A stretch of DNA of 64,000 nucleotides, taken from the NCBI RefSeq assembly GCF_029076445.1, contig NZ_JARESG010000006.1:1-64000 (forward strand), given 5' to 3'. This DNA comes from Pseudarthrobacter naphthalenicus (GTDB lineage Bacteria > Actinomycetota > Actinomycetes > Actinomycetales > Micrococcaceae). The notes below the pieces were generated by a model. That model was not told the DNA's origin and did no database searches. It saw only the letters and a program-made list of their open reading frames with translations. Positions 2,743-58,030 of this stretch are shown here, piece by piece. The first letter of the stretch is position 1. Every line of letters begins with the position of its first letter. Both the position numbers and the translations under genes were made by a program.

Positions 2743-4164
2743 ATGAGCGCCACACTCACAACCACCAAGGGCGCCAACGTAACCGCACTCATGGTGGCCC
2801 TGCTCGCCGCGTGTGTCGCCTTCCAGCTCAACGCCTCCATGCTCAGCCCCGCGCTGGTCACCATGGGCGAGGAACTCAACACTGACCAGGCCACCATCGG
2901 GCTGTCCCAGACCTGGTTCTTCACCGCCGCCGCCCTCTTCTCCCTCTTCCTGCCGCGCCTGAGCGACATCATCGGGCGCAAGAGGATCCTCGTGGGCATG
3001 ATGGTCCTTATGGCCGTCGGCTCGGTCATCGCCGCGCTGGCCCCGGACGTCACCTGGCTCTTTGTGGGCCGCATCATCCAGGGCGTCAGCGGCCCCACCG
3101 TGCCGCTCTGCCTGATCATGCTCCGCTCCGCCGTCAGCAGCCCCAAGAAATACGGCACCCTGATGGGCCTGATCACCGCAGTCAACGGCGGCGTGGCCGG
3201 CGTGGACTCCTTTGTGGGCGGCTACTTTGCCGAGCACTACGGCTTCCGCAGCATCTTCTGGCTCATGGTGGTCCTGGCCGTCGTCGCCACGGCCTTGATC
3301 GCGTTCCTTGCCACCGAAAGCAAACCCGCGGCCGGCACCACCATGGACTGGCTTGGCGTGTTCTTCATCGTGGTGGCCGTGGGCGCCCTGCTCACTGCCC
3401 TCAACGAAGGCGCCAAACTGGTCTCCGCCTTCGAACCCGGCACGCTGCTGCTCTCCGTTGGCCTGGTGGTGGTGGCCGGCGCCGCGTTCTACCTGTTCTG
3501 GCGGACCGAAAAGCGCGCCAAGCAGCCCATGGTGGAAATCGTCCACCTGCGCCAGCGCTCCACCTGGGCGCCGCTGCTGACCACCACCCTGACCATGACC
3601 GGCATCTTCGCCGTCATCAACGGGATCGTCCCCGCCTATGTCCAGGCAGCAGCGCCCGGCTTTGGCATCGGCCCCACCGAAATGTCGCTCCTTATCCTCA
3701 CCCCGTACGCCCTGCTCGGCTGGCTGATCGGCCCCGTCAGCGGCCGCCTCGCTCCCGTCCTCGGCTACACCAAGGTCCTGCGGATCGGCATGCTCGGCAG
3801 CATCGTGGCCCTGGCCGTCATCGCGTTCCTCGGCCTGAGCAGCCTGCCCCTGATGATCGCCGGCACGGTCTTGCTGGGCATCATGTACGCCGGTACGGTC
3901 AACATCATGCTGAACGGCCTCGGAGTTGTCCTCTCACCCGCCGGAAACCCGGGTTTCCTCCCCGGCATGAACGCGGGTGCCTTCAACCTCGGCGCCGGCC
4001 TGAGCTTCCTGGTGCTGCCCGCAGTGCTGGTGGCGACGTCGGCACTTGGCGATGCGAAGGCGTCCTACCTCAGCGTGGTGGTCACCGGGCTGGTCATCAC
4101 CATTGCCGCCTTCGGCGCCTCGCTGCTGATTCCCAAGCCGGTTGAGGCTGAGGTGACCGAATGA
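2743..4164 (+). CDS. MFS transporter, probable nucleoside importer
   Basis: A 473-residue major facilitator protein with 12 to 14 predicted membrane helices. The loop motif RLSDIIGRKR after the second helix is the MFS signature, and overall similarity is to drug:H+ antiporter-like MFS proteins. Its ATG immediately follows the stop of the nucleoside hydrolase, and its end overlaps the ribokinase start by 4 nt, so the three are co-translated. That context suggests uptake of nucleosides or ribose. The family is broad and the substrate is not visible in the sequence. Confidence 0.85.
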   Translation: MSATLTTTKGANVTALMVALLAACVAFQLNASMLSPALVTMGEELNTDQATIGLSQTWFFTAAALFSLFLPRLSDIIGRKRILVGMMVLMAVGSVIAALAPDVTWLFVGRIIQGVSGPTVPLCLIMLRSAVSSPKKYGTLMGLITAVNGGVAGVDSFVGGYFAEHYGFRSIFWLMVVLAVVATALIAFLATESKPAAGTTMDWLGVFFIVVAVGALLTALNEGAKLVSAFEPGTLLLSVGLVVVAGAAFYLFWRTEKRAKQPMVEIVHLRQRSTWAPLLTTTLTMTGIFAVINGIVPAYVQAAAPGFGIGPTEMSLLILTPYALLGWLIGPVSGRLAPVLGYTKVLRIGMLGSIVALAVIAFLGLSSLPLMIAGTVLLGIMYAGTVNIMLNGLGVVLSPAGNPGFLPGMNAGAFNLGAGLSFLVLPAVLVATSALGDAKASYLSVVVTGLVITIAAFGASLLIPKPVEAEVTE

Positions 4165-5135
4165 GCCCCGCACCCGAAGGGACGAACGGCGGGATCGTCG
4201 TCGTCGGCTCCCTGAACGCGGACCTCACCATCTACTGCGAGCGGCTGCCGCTGCCCGGCGAGACCGTGCACGGCAACGGTTTCGCGGTGAACCCCGGCGG
4301 CAAGAGCGCCAACCAGGCAGTCGCTGCCAGCCGGCTGGGTGCCCGGGTCCGCCTCGTGGGTGCCGTGGGCGACGATTCCAACGGCCGGATGCTGCTCTCC
4401 TCGGCCTCCGGCGCGGGAGTGGACGTGCGGCACGTCCGGACCGCCGCCGCTGAGACCGGCGTTGCCGTCATCGCGGTGGATGCCGCCGGCGAAAACAACA
4501 TCATCATCTCGGCCGGGGCCAACGGCACCTTGGCGCCCGCGGACGTCGCCGCGGCCGCGGATGCCATCAGGGGCGCCGCCGTGGTCTGCCTCTGCCTGGA
4601 AGTGGGCATGGAGACGGTGCTGGCTGCCGCGCAGGCAGGGCACGACGCCGGCGCAACAGTGGTGCTGAACCTCTCGCCTTATGCGGAGATTCCGCAGCAG
4701 CTGGCCGACCTCACCGACGTCCTGCTGGTCAACGCCCATGAGGCCTCGCAGTTCCTGGGCTCGGCCGAGATTCCCGGCAGCGACGGCGACGCGGGCGACT
4801 GGGAAGCGGTCCGGCTGCGCTTTGCCGGGCGGGGGCTCCAGCAGGTCCTGGTCACGCTCGGGGCCAATGGCTCCGTGGTGCTCGATTCCCTGGCCGGCAC
4901 GGGGGAGCAGCTTGTCCAGATCGCGCCGATCAGGGTCAATGCCGTGGACACCACCGGCGCGGGCGACGCCTTCACGGGTGCCGTGGCCGCGCGCCTGGCG
5001 GCGGGCGCGTCCCTGGCTGACGCCGCCGCGTTCGCCTCCATCGCCGCCGCGTTGGCCACCACCAAGAAGGGCACCCAGGCCGCCTACCCTGACGAGGACG
5101 ACGTCAAACGGGTGCTCACCGCGGGCGCCGTCTGA
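4161..5135 (+). CDS. rbsK: Ribokinase (PfkB family)
   Basis: A 324-residue PfkB-family sugar kinase, expected to convert D-ribose to ribose 5-phosphate. It has the N-terminal family signature GGKSANQAVAASRLG (about residues 43-57) and the C-terminal DTTGAGDAF motif (about 262-270) with the catalytic aspartate. It overlaps the upstream transporter by ATGA. As the last gene of the hydrolase-transporter-kinase operon it would channel the ribose moiety of nucleosides into the pentose phosphate pathway. A bidirectional terminator follows. Confidence 0.9.
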   Translation: MSPAPEGTNGGIVVVGSLNADLTIYCERLPLPGETVHGNGFAVNPGGKSANQAVAASRLGARVRLVGAVGDDSNGRMLLSSASGAGVDVRHVRTAAAETGVAVIAVDAAGENNIIISAGANGTLAPADVAAAADAIRGAAVVCLCLEVGMETVLAAAQAGHDAGATVVLNLSPYAEIPQQLADLTDVLLVNAHEASQFLGSAEIPGSDGDAGDWEAVRLRFAGRGLQQVLVTLGANGSVVLDSLAGTGEQLVQIAPIRVNAVDTTGAGDAFTGAVAARLAAGASLADAAAFASIAAALATTKKGTQAAYPDEDDVKRVLTAGAV

Positions 5136-5162
5136 GGCCGCCCACCCCGGCACCAGCCACGC

Positions 5163-5217
5163 ACCAAAGAAGCGCCCGACGGCGGCAGTCTCCTGCCGCC
5201 GTCGGGCGCTTCTTGGT
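5163..5217. terminator. Bidirectional terminator between rbsK and the NCS1 permease gene
   Basis: A near-perfect 25-bp stem (arms 5163-5188 and 5193-5217, one bulged A, 4-nt loop) containing GCGCCCGACGGCGGCAG and its complement. It lies between two convergent genes and can end transcripts from both sides. Confidence 0.85.
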
Positions 5218-5262
5218 GTTGGTGGTCCTGTTAGTTGGCTGCGTGCTTAGTGAGCAGGGGTC

Positions 5263-6792
5263 TTAGTGAGCCGCGGGCGCCGTGGGCTGCGTGGCGAACC
5301 GCAGGTCCGCGGTGGCTTGGGCAACCGTGGCGGCCGGCAAAGCCGAGTCCAGGTGTGCGCGGTGGAACCTCGGGCCAAGGACGGCGTAGCTGACGGCGCT
5401 GGCCAGGCCGCCTGCGAGCCAGGAGAGGTCCCAGCCGCCCAGGGCCACTGCGATGGGGCCCTGCATGGCGGGAACGAGCCCGTACATGAACAGCCACGTT
5501 GCGAAGATGCCCACCAGGAGGGACACAATGCCGGCCCAGTTCACGACCGGGAGCCGCTTGGTGCCCACTGCGTCGAAGAGCCGTTCCGGGTTGCCCGGGT
5601 AGCGCTTGTCGAGCCAGAAGTAGTGCACCAGCATGACTCCGCCCCAGGCGGCCACCCAGGCCACGAGCCCGATCAGCCAGGCATCGAGGACGGCGGCGAA
5701 GTCTTCCTGGAAGATGAAGAACACCACGGCGGCGAGGGAGAAGACGCCGACGAACAGGTTGAGCTTGCGGCGGCTGATGGTGATATCCAGCGCCTGGGTT
5801 GCGACCGAGAAGGTGTAGATGTTCAGGATGTTCGTGGCGATGGGTCCGTGCAGCACCATCAGCAGTACGGGCAGCGCCATGACGCCGAAGTTTTGGACGA
5901 TGAGCTTGCCGGGGTCGATCTCGCCGCTGTTGGTGGCGAGGCTGGCACCGAGGACGCCGAGCCATACGACGGGGATGAACTGGCCCAGGACGGATGCCAG
6001 GTAGACCTTCTTCTTGGGCACTTCGGTGCTGACAAACCGGGAGTAGTCGGCGGCGTAGGTGAACCAGGTGATGCCCCAGCCGATCCCGATGGCGGTCATC
6101 ACGGCGCTCATGGCCGCGATGCGCTCTGAACCCTGCAGGATCTGACCGGCCGGGCCGGCGTAGCCCCAGTCGATCTTCATGCCGAACCAGGCAACGGCGG
6201 ACATCACGGCCAGGATGATGATGGTGGGCGGGACGGTCCACTTTTCGAACGCTGCGATGGCCTTGTAGCCGAACCAGGCGATGGCCACCTGTGCGGCCAT
6301 GATGGCGGTGGCCACACCGATCTTCCATACGTAGTTGTGGGCCGTGGGATCAACCCAGCCGAGGGTGCCGAACAGGGCCATGACCAGGTCCAGGATGATC
6401 CAGGTGTTGACCGCGCACCAGCCGATCACCAGGAGGGCCTGGATGGCTGCCGGGAGGTAGTTGCCGCGGCGGCCGAAGGCGGCGCGGGCCAGGACCATGC
6501 CGGTGGCGCCGGTCTTCTGGCCGAGCAGGACGAAGCAGCCGAACAGCAGCATGCCGATCAGGTTCCCCAAAACCAGAACGGTGACGGTGTCGGCGAAGCC
6601 GAGGCCGAGGTGGATGCCGAGGGCGCCAAGCACCCAGTTGATCGGAGCAAGGTTGGCGCCGGCCCAGATCCAGAACTGACCGGAAACTTTGTGCGTGCGC
6701 TGGGACTCGGGAATGGGCTGGAGCCAGGCTTCGCAGTCCTCAGCCGGCATCATTGCCGACTCAGACTGCTTCGTTGAGAGGTTGTCTTGCAT
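5263..6792 (-). CDS. NCS1-family cytosine/purine permease
   Basis: A 509-residue integral membrane protein of the nucleobase:cation symporter-1 family, with about 12 hydrophobic segments and the conserved N-terminal region WIWAGANLAPINW. The ATG at 6792 is preceded by GGAGG. It is divergent from a PucR-type regulator with inverted repeats between the two. Together with the neighbouring nucleoside operon this suggests uptake of a nucleobase, allantoin or a related compound. CodB, PucI and hydantoin transporters share this fold, so I do not assign a symbol. Confidence 0.87.
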   Translation of the reverse strand: MQDNLSTKQSESAMMPAEDCEAWLQPIPESQRTHKVSGQFWIWAGANLAPINWVLGALGIHLGLGFADTVTVLVLGNLIGMLLFGCFVLLGQKTGATGMVLARAAFGRRGNYLPAAIQALLVIGWCAVNTWIILDLVMALFGTLGWVDPTAHNYVWKIGVATAIMAAQVAIAWFGYKAIAAFEKWTVPPTIIILAVMSAVAWFGMKIDWGYAGPAGQILQGSERIAAMSAVMTAIGIGWGITWFTYAADYSRFVSTEVPKKKVYLASVLGQFIPVVWLGVLGASLATNSGEIDPGKLIVQNFGVMALPVLLMVLHGPIATNILNIYTFSVATQALDITISRRKLNLFVGVFSLAAVVFFIFQEDFAAVLDAWLIGLVAWVAAWGGVMLVHYFWLDKRYPGNPERLFDAVGTKRLPVVNWAGIVSLLVGIFATWLFMYGLVPAMQGPIAVALGGWDLSWLAGGLASAVSYAVLGPRFHRAHLDSALPAATVAQATADLRFATQPTAPAAH

Positions 6793-8480: not shown

Positions 8481-8558
8481 ACCCTCTCGCACTTAATGTG
8501 GGTTTTTGGCCAACCCTCTCGCACTTAATGTGGGTTAGCGGTGGACCCTCTCGCACCT
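8481..8558 (+). repeat. 32-bp-period repeat, two full units and a partial third
   Basis: Units starting ACCCTCTCGCACTTAATGTG begin at 8481 and 8513, and a truncated one begins at 8545, each exactly 32 bp apart. About 24 bp of each unit is conserved and the remaining bases vary. It follows the pucR stop in the same orientation seen after the other genes that end in this element. Confidence 0.85.
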
Positions 8559-9598: not shown

Positions 9599-9690
9599 GA
9601 CGCTCCCTCACCACGGTGAGAGAGCGTCACGCCAAAACCCACATTAAGTGAGAGAGGATCGCCCGAAAACCCACATTAAGTGAGAGAGCG
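9599..9690 (-). repeat. 32-bp-family repeat with a terminal hairpin, 3' of purU
   Basis: A short hairpin, GACGCTCCCTCACC paired with GGTGAGAGAGCGTC (9599-9628), is followed by two units containing AAAACCCACATTAAGTGAGA at 9634 and 9666, exactly 32 bp apart. Read from the end of purU, the orientation is the same as in the other copies. It lies between convergent genes. Confidence 0.85.
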
Positions 9691-9723
9691 TCCGGGAGGG
9701 GCAGGGCGGGGGGCGGACGGGGG

Positions 9724-24387: not shown

Positions 24388-24522
24388 ACGCTCTCTCACT
24401 TAATGCAGGAAAAACCGGATCGCTCTCTCACTTTCTTCAAGAAACTGAGAGAGCGATCCGGTTTAAGCCGCATTAAGTGAGAGAGCGTCGGGTAAAAACC
24501 CACATTAAGTGAGAGAGCGTCA
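24388..24522. repeat. Largest copy of the 32-bp repeat family, nested hairpin
   Basis: Two plus-oriented units begin at 24388 and 24420 and two minus-oriented units have their CATTAAGT cores at 24471 and 24503, each pair exactly 32 bp apart. The inner part CCGGATCGCTCTCTCACTTT pairs with the following AACTGAGAGAGCGATCCGG, and the outer arms ACGCTCTCTCACTTAATGC and GCATTAAGTGAGAGAGCG also pair, giving a stem of about 50 bp. It lies between two convergent genes. The stop codon of the minus-strand gene at 24520 is formed by its edge. Confidence 0.9.
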
Positions 24523-24807
24523 GGCCTGTTCGGAGCTGGGGGGATCGTCGGCGTCGATTTCGTCCGAGTAGGGTGCGCGGGGGCCTTCGTTGCCGGCGGT
24601 AAGTTCGTTCGCGGCCATGGCCAGCAGGTCCCGCTGGAGCTGTGGGAGGGAGAGCAGTCCCTGCATGTAGGCTTCCACCTCGTACTCGCCCACGGTCCCG
24701 CCGATGCCGAAGTAGTACAGCCACAGGTCGCCGGTGGTAACTTGTGCTGCAGTGAGCGCTGCCTGGAGCCGGCGGCGCTGCTCGGGTTCGCTGCTATCGA
24801 AGCCCAT
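24520..24807 (-). CDS. Small ANTAR-associated protein of unknown function
   Basis: A 95-residue soluble protein with the core DLWLYYFGIGGTVGEYEVEA (about residues 26-45) followed by a Leu-rich helix (MQGLLSLPQLQRDLLAMAAN) and an acidic tail. I do not recognise a named family. A paralogue with the same core (ELWTYYCGIGGTADEVVLDA) is encoded at 26470-26708, also next to a GAF-ANTAR gene. The start overlaps the upstream GAF-ANTAR gene, so the two are co-translated. It is probably a helical partner or modulator of the ANTAR protein (inference). I chose ATG 24807 over the adjoining GTG. Confidence 0.75.
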   Translation of the reverse strand: MGFDSSEPEQRRRLQAALTAAQVTTGDLWLYYFGIGGTVGEYEVEAYMQGLLSLPQLQRDLLAMAANELTAGNEGPRAPYSDEIDADDPPSSEQA

Positions 24808-25534
24808 CACTGGTGCCTCTAGGCCGGTCAGTGCTGACAGCCAAAAGGGCGGCGCTGACTTCGCTGAGCGTGGTGCGCGAGGTGCGCGCCTGCTTCATCA
24901 GCTGTTGCAGGGCCTCGTCCTCGCTGAGGGTATGGCGCTCCATGAGGACTCCGCAGGCCCGGTTGATCAGGTCCCTGCTGTAGAGGGCTGCCTGGAGGCT
25001 TTCACTGATGCGTGCGGGGGTTTCGGTAGTCTGGATGTGCGCGAGCAATGTTGCCGCGGGCGCGGCAAACAGCTCCATGAGGGTGGTGGTGGCCTCATCG
25101 AAGGCGTTGGGGGTTGCGGCGTAGATTTTCATGGCGCCGAGGGCCTCGCCGTCGGTAAGGAGTGGCGTGCTGACCACTGAGCGGATGGGAAGGCCAGCCA
25201 CGGCTGAGCACCAGCCCGGCCACCGGCCATCCTTGGCCACGTCGCGGATCAGGACGCTTTGCTCGGTGGCCCAGGCGGTGAGGCAGGGGCCCTGGACCAG
25301 TTCGTATTGAAGGGTATCAGCGCGTTGAACCACGGCATCCGTGGACCCTGAACTGACAGGCCGGGCATTGGGGTCAAGAATGGAAACTCCGGCTCCCAGC
25401 GTCCCCGGAATGGAGTCCCGGACAGCCCGCGAGAGCAGCTGCACGGCGCGGTCCACCTTCTCTTCCGTGAGGAGGAGCCCCATAATCCTGCCGAGGACGG
25501 TGGAAAGTTCATCCAGGGGATATTTCTTGATCAT
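24794..25534 (-). CDS. GAF-ANTAR domain protein (third of three)
   Basis: A 246-residue protein with a GAF sensor domain (about residues 20-160; ELVQGPCLTAWATEQSVLIRD) and a C-terminal ANTAR RNA-binding domain (about 178-235; LQAALYSRDLINRACGVLME). ANTAR domains bind paired hairpins in nascent RNA and prevent termination. ATG 25534 is preceded by GGAGG; an upstream ATG at 25570 has no such site. It overlaps the small protein gene that follows. There is no receiver domain or kinase beside it, so the input is likely a small molecule or gas sensed by GAF (inference). Confidence 0.87.
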   Translation of the reverse strand: MIKKYPLDELSTVLGRIMGLLLTEEKVDRAVQLLSRAVRDSIPGTLGAGVSILDPNARPVSSGSTDAVVQRADTLQYELVQGPCLTAWATEQSVLIRDVAKDGRWPGWCSAVAGLPIRSVVSTPLLTDGEALGAMKIYAATPNAFDEATTTLMELFAAPAATLLAHIQTTETPARISESLQAALYSRDLINRACGVLMERHTLSEDEALQQLMKQARTSRTTLSEVSAALLAVSTDRPRGTSDGLR

Positions 25535-25675
25535 ACTTTCTGCCTCCGGCCATTCAGCGTGACCGGCCATCGGAGGGCCGGATAACCCTGTTTCGGGCCG
25601 CTCAGCGCTTTCAGGTAAAGCCTAACGCGTCCGCCGGGCCGAGAGCCCCGCGCGGCACGATTCGCGTACAGCGGG

Positions 25676-26452
25676 CTATTCGTCATACGGGGTAGGGAAT
25701 TCCTGTTCGCCGGAAACCGACGAGACGATGCTGGCGGCCACCTCCCTCAGCTTGATGTTCCGGTGGCTGGACGTCTTCACCAGGATGTCGAATGCCTCAT
25801 CCCGCCGGCACCTGTTCTGGGCAATGATGACGCCGATCGCCGTGTCGATAACGGTGCGGGATTTCAGGGCCGCGGAGAGGTCATCACGAGCAGTACGCAA
25901 CTGCGCCATGTTCAGTGCAATATCGAGGGCTTTCGCGGCTGTGCCGGTGAGGCTCTCGGCCTGGTCAATCCCGTCATGCGAGAAGCCGTCCGGGACGGGC
26001 GCGTACAGGTTCACCACGGCCTGCGCGGGTGCCTGGAGATGCATGGGTACGGCGAGGATGGATCTGATCTCCACGGCGCGTGCGGCACCGTTGTATTTGG
26101 GCCAGCGTGGTTCCGAGTCCAGATCCGGGACGTAGATCACGGTCCCGTTCCGGAGGGCCGTGAGGCAGGGCCCGTCGCCGAAGCTGTTCTGCAGTTCATC
26201 CAGGGCCCGGGCCCGCGAATCGCTGCTTGCCACCGTGGTGGGCCGTTTGTTCCGGATTACGGTGATCCCGCACGAGATGTGGTTCCCGCTCTGTGACAGC
26301 CGCGAGACCATGATGGCGGCCATATCCGTGAGGAAGTCACGGACGTCGGAACTTTGCAGGATGACGTCCTGGAGCTGGAGGACAAAATCTTCCACGCTCT
26401 CTTCCCGGCCGCCGTCGTAATGGAACTTCCGCGTATCGATTCCCTCGGACAT
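25676..26452 (-). CDS. GAF-ANTAR domain protein (second of three)
   Basis: A 258-residue protein with GAF (about residues 45-185; LQNSFGDGPCLTALRNGTVIYVPDLD) and ANTAR (about 200-255; LSAALKSRTVIDTAIGVIIAQ) domains. I chose ATG 26452, with a GGAAGGGAG site. The start lies 17 nt after the restored-frame stop of the upstream small gene. The 141-bp gap to the third GAF-ANTAR gene contains a CCGGCC...GGCCGG hairpin (near 25561-25580) but no clear promoter. All three ANTAR genes run in the same direction. Confidence 0.87.
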   Translation of the reverse strand: MSEGIDTRKFHYDGGREESVEDFVLQLQDVILQSSDVRDFLTDMAAIMVSRLSQSGNHISCGITVIRNKRPTTVASSDSRARALDELQNSFGDGPCLTALRNGTVIYVPDLDSEPRWPKYNGAARAVEIRSILAVPMHLQAPAQAVVNLYAPVPDGFSHDGIDQAESLTGTAAKALDIALNMAQLRTARDDLSAALKSRTVIDTAIGVIIAQNRCRRDEAFDILVKTSSHRNIKLREVAASIVSSVSGEQEFPTPYDE

Positions 26453-26469
26453 GGGCACTCCCTTCCTCT

Positions 26470-26708
26470 TCAGTCCGCCGTGATCTCTTTGATGGCGGTA
26501 TGGAGCAGATCCACCTGCAGGGGAGAAGCTCCACCATTTCATTCAGATAGGCGTCCAGCACCACTTCATCTGCAGTGCCGCCGATTCCGCAATAGTAGGT
26601 CCACAGCTCGGGGACCGTCAGGTTTGCACGCTGGAACTGAGCCGCCGCAAACTTGCGCGGGTCCGGTTCGAAGGCAGACTGCTCGGAAGAAGCCCTGTCA
26701 CTGATCAT
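26470..26708 (-). pseudogene. Small ANTAR-associated protein, frame broken at a CCCC run
   Basis: A paralogue of the 95-residue protein at 24520. The first 63 codons from ATG 26708 give ELWTYYCGIGGTADEVVLDA and LNEMVELLP. The homologous continuation LQVDLLHTAIKEITAD is in the -1 frame and stops at 26470, just before the next gene's ribosome-binding site. The break falls in four Cs on the coding strand (26520-26523). Without a shift the frame reads on to 26337 and overlaps the next gene as unrelated sequence. Possible explanations are a true indel, a base-call error, or -1 slippage on CCC-C. Its start overlaps the upstream GAF-ANTAR stop by 11 nt. Confidence 0.75.
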
Positions 26709-27432
26709 CGGTCTCTCCGGTAATCACCGGAATCCCGGATGCGTTGCGCAGGATGTCCTGGGCGATGTCATGCATCCGCCGGTTGGTGCTGCGGGAGGCC
26801 AACTGCAAAAGCTCAAGCGCAGCCTCATGGCTACAGCGGTTGTGCACCATGATGAGTGAAACGGCTGAGTCCACGATCGCCCGGGAGCGGAGCGCGGACC
26901 TGAGGTGTTCCGGATAGGGCTCAGGAGAATGCACCCGCATGGCCAGGCGGAGGATCCTGGAAAGGGACTTGGCGTGATCTTCCACTGCCGCGACCGTCTC
27001 CGCCGAGAATGCGTGGGCTTTGGTTGAATAGCAGTTCAACGCCGCCCGGGAGCCGTTGTCGGCGGGAATGGGGACAGCCAGAATCGTCTGGATTCCCTCG
27101 CTCGAAATGGCTTTTGCGTACCACTCCCAGCTCTCGTCCGCCTCAAGATCGGGGATGTGGACCGTGCGCTGGTGCCGCAGGGCGGTCAGGCACGGACCGT
27201 CGTCGTAAGCGTACTGGCGCTCATCGAGGCTGCGCGCTTCAGCGGAGCTGCTGGCCACCGTTGCCGGGCCGCTCTGGCGTTCCACCGTAATGGCGCACAG
27301 CATGGGCGCATCCCCGCCGAGCAGGGACGCGGAAATGGCGGCAAGTTCCAGAAGGAATTCGGTGAAGCCGGGGCTCTCCAGCAGCAGGTCCTGCAATTGT
27401 TCGGCGGTGGGGAGGGCGTTGTTCTCGGCCAT
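26698..27432 (-). CDS. GAF-ANTAR domain protein (first of three)
   Basis: A 244-residue protein from ATG 27432 (GAGG upstream); an in-frame ATG at 27558 would add 42 residues with no similarity to the paralogues. It has GAF (YAYDDGPCLTALRHQRTVHIPDLE) and ANTAR (LRSALRSRAIVDSAVSLIMV) domains. The ANTAR helix has Ser where the other two copies have Gly (AVSLIM against AIGVII and ACGVLM), a change at a normally conserved spot. It heads a run of five minus-strand genes down to 24520. Confidence 0.85.
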   Translation of the reverse strand: MAENNALPTAEQLQDLLLESPGFTEFLLELAAISASLLGGDAPMLCAITVERQSGPATVASSSAEARSLDERQYAYDDGPCLTALRHQRTVHIPDLEADESWEWYAKAISSEGIQTILAVPIPADNGSRAALNCYSTKAHAFSAETVAAVEDHAKSLSRILRLAMRVHSPEPYPEHLRSALRSRAIVDSAVSLIMVHNRCSHEAALELLQLASRSTNRRMHDIAQDILRNASGIPVITGETDDQ

Positions 27433-57954: not shown

Positions 57955-58030
57955 GACGCTCTCACTTAATGTGGATTTTTCCCAAACGCTCTCTCACTTA
58001 ACGCGGGTTTTGGGCGGACGCTCTCTCAGT
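57955..58030 (+). repeat. 32-bp-family repeat that overlaps the sialidase stop codon
   Basis: Units begin at 57957 (shortened by 2 bp), 57986 and 58018, the last two exactly 32 bp apart, with cores CTCACTTAATGTGG and CTCTCACTTAACGCGG. The sialidase stop codon (58026-58028) lies in the last unit. Relative to the sialidase gene the orientation is opposite to that of the other copies. Confidence 0.85.

Follow-up and report, generated by a model that had tools for sequence, protein, structure and literature searches.

What is the role of the small genes that follow GAF-ANTAR regulator genes in the actinobacterium Pseudarthrobacter naphthalenicus? The locus lies in the first 64,000 nucleotides of contig NZ_JARESG010000006.1 (RefSeq assembly GCF_029076445.1; this stretch is hereafter the window), where five genes are arranged on the minus strand in the order ANTAR-C, SP2, ANTAR-B, ANTAR-A and SP1. 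We propose, as a reading about evenly balanced between right and wrong, that SP1 and its relatives represent an undescribed actinobacterial signalling domain of ~70 residues, which would act as a dedicated partner that masks the RNA-binding face of a GAF-ANTAR protein in trans. The observations behind this proposal are the pairing of the genes, the common subfamily of the ANTAR partners, the correlated divergence of the pairs, fusions of the domain, its predicted helical fold and its acidity. The five genes and the conserved core of SP1 are as follows.

26698–27432, minus strand: ANTAR-C, a GAF-ANTAR regulator and gene 1 of the cassette (Pfam ANTAR 53.6 bits, GAF_2 40.3 bits).
26337–26708, minus strand: SP2, a small-domain gene with an open reading frame (ORF) of 123 amino acids, family-like up to about residue 61 (about position 26525).
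25676–26452, minus strand: ANTAR-B, a GAF-ANTAR regulator directly behind SP2 (Pfam ANTAR 62.5 bits, GAF_2 55.2 bits).
24794–25570, minus strand: ANTAR-A, a GAF-ANTAR protein of the partnered subfamily (Pfam ANTAR 59.1 bits, GAF_2 54.6 bits), with an alternative start at an ATG near 25534.
24520–24810, minus strand: SP1, the intact small-domain gene and partner of ANTAR-A, starting at ATG 24807 or GTG 24810.
24592–24789, minus strand: the conserved helical core of SP1, residues 7–72, covered by an alignment of 74 sequences (A4).

All three ANTAR proteins scored above the Pfam cut-offs for ANTAR (PF03861, 27.3 bits) and for an N-terminal GAF domain (GAF_2, 28.6 bits), which bears out the claim of an earlier sequence-only reading of this DNA that three GAF-ANTAR genes run in series. 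The gene overlaps given in that reading were also correct: SP1 overlaps the stop of ANTAR-A by 14 nucleotides from its ATG (17 from its GTG), and SP2 overlaps that of ANTAR-C by 11 nucleotides. Two small ORFs with a shared (D/E)LW-YY-GIGGT core had further been described; the motif is indeed common to both, but SP2 is only partly family-like. The core motif of SP1 reads LW-x-x-YF-x-x-GG ... EAY ... D ... NE. Neither SP1 nor SP2 gave a Pfam or NCBIfam match at E up to 1, and a scan of the window with Rfam gave no match at the gathering threshold. The identical five-gene order was present in genome G013 (locus L242), and the ratio of nonsynonymous to synonymous substitution rates (dN/dS) against this genome was 0.10 for ANTAR-C. 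SP1 is intact and under purifying selection, with dN/dS values of 0.28, 0.10 and 0.19 against G013, G030 and G008, respectively. The P. naphthalenicus genome (hereafter the own genome) contained 15 ANTAR matches and 2 small-domain matches.

The small domain is widespread in the phylum. A search of 59 genomes with SP1 matched 26 at E 0.001, the own genome included and all from its genus, and 30 loci were fetched. A profile (A2), applied by way of two short peptide patterns to one genome per species (84,980 species), gave 127 relatives, of which the best 80 were kept as the named loci; by record title, 79 of these 80 belonged to Actinomycetota. The relatives came from Acidimicrobiaceae and other Acidimicrobiia, Frankiales, Nitriliruptorales, Mycobacterium, Rhodococcus, Nocardia, Amycolatopsis and Saccharothrix, and additionally from Geodermatophilus, Georgenia, Cellulomonas, Propionibacteriaceae and many Arthrobacter-like bacteria and Kocuria. 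An Arthrobacter-type ANTAR gene with a small gene was also present on a contig labelled Vibrio cholerae 35D (WNZI01000091.1, L130); this contig is probably contamination, because in the ANTAR tree it is placed among Arthrobacter, together with Arthrobacter cheniae, bussei and agilis. Within the own family, 17 of 100 sampled genomes were matched at an E value of 1e-6 or lower. In two large profile-search samples, each including the own genome, the domain occurred in at least 4 of 296 and at least 12 of 394 genomes, which are lower bounds because only some candidates per genome were scored. Besides its lack of a Pfam match, and of an NCBIfam match for SP1 and SP2, the domain is undescribed in the open-licence literature: the available parts of the papers found gave no account of the small protein or of partner proteins of GAF-ANTAR regulators, and the words 'GAF' and 'adjacent' are absent from the available main text of a study of ANTAR RNAs in actinobacteria (PMC8164766).

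The genomic association with ANTAR genes was quantified after ANTAR ORFs had been located by a profile built from the 15 ANTAR domains of the own genome. A small gene was counted as directly behind an ANTAR gene when a same-strand ANTAR ORF ended no more than 200 nucleotides before, or 260 nucleotides after, the start of the domain match. By this definition, 73 of the 80 named loci qualified; the remaining seven comprised three with an ANTAR gene within 1.2 kb, one at a contig edge and three with none. The own-genus set gave a similar picture (23 of 30 directly behind, six more within 1.2 kb and one with none). Sixteen genomes selected because they carry the domain contained 56 copies at an E value of 0.001 or lower: 27 were directly behind an ANTAR gene, 14 more were within 1.2 kb and 15 had none nearby. 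These three sets share some loci, and the counts were made without thinning for similarity. A hold-out set consisted of 32 copies from 13 further genomes with a match in the 100-genome own-family sample, 31 of which were new (the G786 copy has the contig and place of L120). Twelve of the 31 new copies were directly behind an ANTAR gene (13 of 32 with the G786 copy), nine more lay within 1.2 kb (21 in all) and ten had none. For a random gene, an ANTAR gene directly ahead would be expected in less than 1% of cases, an estimate rather than a count, from 15 ANTAR matches in 4.56 Mb. As all these counts are far above that background, gene order supports a dedicated partner well. The expectation that the small protein follows GAF-ANTAR genes thus stands as a strong tendency but not as a rule: the association of the small domain with ANTAR genes is usual and strong, but not exclusive.

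The spacing of the paired genes is tight. Taking the earliest available start codon from 60 nucleotides ahead of the ANTAR stop onwards, 117 of 120 starts, drawn from the three partly overlapping locus sets, fell between −60 and +20 nucleotides of that stop; 57 of the 120 partnered loci overlapped it and 60 began 0–20 nucleotides after it. Overlap between the two genes is therefore not general, and the stoichiometric co-translation suggested by the sequence-only reading is plausible from the tight spacing.

Several loci depart from the usual arrangement. The domain was multiplied in genus g217 of the own family, with 16 copies in G616 (L186–L198) and 12 in G785 (among L288–L307). Many of the g217 copies had no ANTAR neighbour and several were fused to GAF, indicating that the domain can also occur where no ANTAR gene adjoins it. 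In Arthrobacter sp. MSA 4-2 (L132), the small gene is kept, preceded by what by eye appear to be the last residues of an ANTAR gene, with no ANTAR match nearby. At L021 (G020), the partnered ANTAR has, judged by eye, apparently lost its GAF domain and the small gene behind it is kept. On plasmid NZ_CP117870.1 (L247, locus 3935–5547), the small-domain match lies inside a gene annotated 'GAF domain-containing protein', and the adjoining gene on the opposite strand is annotated 'GAF and ANTAR domain-containing protein'.

The partners of the small domain are largely one kind of ANTAR protein. A FastTree phylogeny was built from the 15 own-genome ANTARs and 89 partnered ones, made non-redundant. 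Of the 89, 85, ANTAR-A included, formed one group, separate from the remaining own-genome ANTARs (support 80; 91 and 93 on inner branches; none of the three starred). Nine other own-genome ANTARs, among them ANTAR-B, grouped with ANTAR-C and two SP2-type partners (support 99). Four partnered ANTARs fell outside the partnered group, namely two SP2-type rows, indicating that SP2 belongs to another ANTAR line, and the long branches L021 and L091. By eye, the ANTARs of L021 and L091 have no recognisable GAF domain, which makes a GAF-ligand adaptor, one of three functions offered by the sequence-only reading for the small protein, less likely. In the reverse direction, a profile built from partnered ANTARs (A6) was run over 246 genomes of the class, weaker matches being examined in part. 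Six matches scored 249 bits or more, with the small domain behind five of them (G416, G403, G388, G002:C11 and G000, the last being a member of the profile); none of the 25 loci fetched at 165–198 bits had a same-strand small domain. ANTAR-A was the best match of the partnered-ANTAR profile at 366 bits, the window itself being a row of that profile.

The two members of a pair also diverged together. Distances between small domains correlated with those between their ANTAR partners (r 0.77, n = 85; largest of 2000 permutations 0.13), four of the 89 rows having been dropped (three with long branches or poor filling, and L063 because of an unusual letter composition). The correlation was r 0.91 for 26 pairs from own-genus genomes and G616 (largest permuted value 0.50), and r 0.87 for the six G616 pairs, a value reached by 14 of 720 permutations.

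To characterize the domain itself, we examined a structure model of SP1 built from 74 sequences (mean predicted local distance difference test score (pLDDT) 88.1, predicted template modelling score (pTM) 0.77), which contains helices at residues 7–20, 25–34, 41–48 and 56–69. W29 and G37 are invariant in the A4 alignment, and Y32, F33, G36, A46, A65, N67 and E68 are almost so; in the last long helix, D60 was conserved in 65, N67 in 70 and E68 in 73 of the 74 sequences. Foldseek returned weak matches (best E 0.97, probability up to 0.96), and VIA gave Z scores up to 8.2, a range that the tool calls common for helical models. Among the 50 structural matches listed, nearly all were XRE, lambda-repressor or POU-specific domains. 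Sequence comparisons were fainter: the A4 profile gave weak matches to PDB sequences (best E 0.14), and against an XRE profile of 14 own-genome rows (row 15 was empty because its locus was clipped) it aligned in register with a local probability of 5% and E 0.008, barely above noise, and a global probability of 1.3% and E 0.017, each E referring to one comparison. A comparison of A4 with the ANTAR profile gave nothing. Among the 18 families matched by the 74 members at E up to 10, helix-turn-helix families, HTH_3 included, were absent; one of the 74 matched the ribbon-helix-helix model RHH_4 at 0.006. The core was acidic in all 74 sequences, with net charges from −10 to −1 and a mean of −5.6. 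The mean charge was −1.24 for helix 4 and −1.85 for helix 3, the equivalent of the recognition helix, compared with +0.4 for the latter in the 14 own-genome XRE rows; a basic recognition helix is thus absent. This acidity, together with the lack of a helix-turn-helix family match, makes DNA or RNA binding by the small protein unlikely and a protein–protein role likely.

Fusions of the domain point to the proteins with which it may work. The ORF extended ~400 residues beyond the domain in nine of the 80 named loci and in four of the 56 others, including loci from Amycolatopsis, Nocardia, Saccharothrix, Georgenia and Cellulomonas, and all 13 were directly behind an ANTAR gene. Each of the six long ORFs that were scanned contained a SpoIIE phosphatase domain (PF07228, 96–154 bits), with the small domain as the N-terminus. 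At L221, behind an ANTAR gene, the small domain was joined to STAS, and five scanned small-domain proteins carried a GAF fusion, the small domain being N-terminal in these fusions too; two more long copies (L186 and L195) gave no match in a Pfam scan. Phosphatase-type and stand-alone partners were intermixed in the ANTAR tree, where the label 'small' required nine changes, at least four of them forced by well-supported branches (shuffled mean 23.5). PP2C/SpoIIE phosphatases and STAS proteins are standard components of partner-switching systems. The phosphatase and STAS fusions suggest that ANTAR-based RNA regulation and partner switching, which are usually studied apart, may be wired together. 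Separately, an ORF that by eye is STAS-like comes after the GAF-ANTAR genes at L253 (G454) and L255 (G464), which lack the small domain.

The second small gene of the cassette may have had a different fate. Relative to the G013 orthologue, in which the corresponding stretch is a single open frame, the SP2 frame slips by one base after about residue 61; the G030 counterpart is broken, requiring three single-base gaps in the alignment. Over the 44 aligned codons upstream of the slip, dN/dS against G013 was 0.10, so that either the gene began to decay recently or the slip stems from an error in sequencing. SP2 is accordingly a decaying gene or a sequencing error. Five loci (L035, L037, L038, one in G600 and one in G017) have an SP2-type gene directly before a downstream ANTAR gene and no ANTAR gene directly upstream. 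As SP2 itself sits between ANTAR-C and ANTAR-B, and SP2-type genes at these five loci are paired downstream, it is doubtful that the middle ANTAR gene is without a copy of its own, as had been stated.

How could such a partner act? The small domain, encoded directly behind one GAF-ANTAR subfamily and dedicated to it, would dock on the ANTAR protein and set the availability of its RNA-binding face in trans. The acidic helical partner, with its conserved D60, N67 and E68 on the last long helix, might mask the basic ANTAR patch, much as the NIT domain is proposed to do in cis in NasR. When fused to a SpoIIE-type phosphatase, STAS or GAF, the same docking domain may wire the ANTAR regulator to partner switching. 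Physical binding, masking as the direction of the effect and the partner-switching link are what we infer. The precedent is NasR, where residues that bind RNA, among them R340, R366 and N373, are proposed to be held by the NIT domain, and changing E191 (paired with R340) or R193 frees RNA binding from nitrate control, as described in the available parts of PMC7496416. The residue matched to R340 is an invariant arginine in all 23 partnered ANTARs of alignment A5, a match read from the alignment, in which chain numbers run 27 above those of PMC7496416; the partnered GAF-ANTARs may thus have kept RNA-binding competence. The complete scheme, in which a separate acidic XRE-like docking protein, dedicated to one GAF-ANTAR subfamily throughout Actinomycetota, gates RNA binding in trans and the SpoIIE and STAS fusions connect it to a partner-switching network, is tentative and somewhat unlikely.

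Several observations weigh against the masking partner. A paired model (L019, ANTAR and small gene as one chain through their single in-frame stop, 23 rows) reached a pTM of 0.51; as the tool reports no inter-domain error, an interface could not be read from it. Masking is argued from charge and from analogy, and in the NasR analogy itself, changing D201 or Q204, which are proposed to pair with R366 and N373, made little difference (available parts of PMC7496416). No ANTAR gene lay within 1.2 kb of 10 of the 31 new copies and 15 of the 56 copies in the 16 genomes. ANTAR-C, the partner of SP2, falls outside the partnered subfamily; G002:C10, a close relative of ANTAR-A (309 bits), has no small gene behind it; and the partnered ANTAR of G353 scores 153 bits, below the gap, indicating that the score gap misses some lineages. 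Co-inherited neighbours also give correlated distances, so that the correlations establish stable pairing rather than contact. The main alternative, and a doubtful one, is that the domain is an adaptor and not an inhibitor: a docking module that would bring SpoIIE phosphatases, STAS proteins and GAF proteins to the GAF-ANTAR regulator, with stand-alone copies competing with the fused ones or forming a bridge to partners encoded separately. The long ORFs behind ANTAR genes, with SpoIIE in every one scanned, the STAS fusion at L221 and the STAS-like ORFs at L253 and L255 all fit this adaptor, whereas the domain stands alone in the own genome and at most loci.

A co-regulated neighbour, produced together with the ANTAR protein and acting elsewhere in the same response without direct contact, appears improbable. 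It would agree with the many g217 copies in G616 and G785 that lack an ANTAR neighbour or are fused to GAF, and with the paired model's lack of a confident interface, but pairing with largely one ANTAR subfamily, tight spacing across the phylum and correlated divergence speak against it. We regard it as very improbable that the small protein is an XRE-type DNA-binding autoregulator of the cassette, as the predominance of lambda-repressor, XRE and POU-specific domains among the structural matches and the weak in-register profile alignment could suggest; the absence of helix-turn-helix family matches, the negative charge of the domain and of helix 3, and the best Foldseek E value all argue otherwise. 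That the small gene is a passenger ORF without function is scarcely credible: the frameshift in SP2 and the broken G030 counterpart would be expected of such an ORF, but the dN/dS values of SP1 (0.10–0.28) and of the 44 SP2 codons, and conservation across the phylum, would not.

Apart from the coding sequences, a REP-like (repetitive extragenic palindromic) repeat abuts the SP1 stop at positions 24388–24520, with the unit CATTAAGTGAGAGAGCG(T) in inverted pairs at 32-nucleotide spacing. Further copies in the window lie near 189, at 8481–8530 and 9642–9691, and near 57986, giving nine copies at up to two mismatches where none were expected. The own genome has the repeat at 86 places (43 per strand, up to one mismatch), several of them close to contig ends.

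ANTAR regulators themselves are known, and what is new here is a putative dedicated partner protein for ANTAR regulation. Actinobacteria can hold many ANTAR proteins, with 15 matches in the own genome and 33 in G616, and a conserved dedicated partner names a subfamily among them, a candidate binding partner and residues that can be tested. Among known systems, XRE and lambda-repressor domains weakly resemble the small domain in predicted helix arrangement, but the latter has no sequence-family match, an acidic surface and no basic recognition helix. The fused proteins recall RsbU/SpoIIE-type phosphatases, in which a C-terminal SpoIIE domain (PF07228, here up to 154 bits) follows an N-terminal helical region; they differ in that the N-terminal domain has no Pfam match and the gene sits behind a GAF-ANTAR gene. 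The receiver-ANTAR proteins PdtaR/Rv1626 and EutV share the ANTAR output, and for one own-genome ANTAR (L001) the closest relative of solved structure is Rv1626 (1s8n). They differ in being activated by phosphorylation, and the available parts of PMC8164766 describe no small partner protein. Receiver-ANTAR proteins of this kind have kinase partners. NasR of Klebsiella, a NIT-ANTAR protein, and other one-component regulators resemble the proposed mechanism in that a signal domain controls the ANTAR domain; the equivalent of NasR R340 is kept in the partnered ANTARs of A5. Their control element, however, resides in the same chain, whereas the one proposed here would be encoded apart, as a small protein with a different fold. 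If so, a partner acting in trans would be an additional way to control ANTAR proteins, next to phosphorylation and signal domains within the chain.

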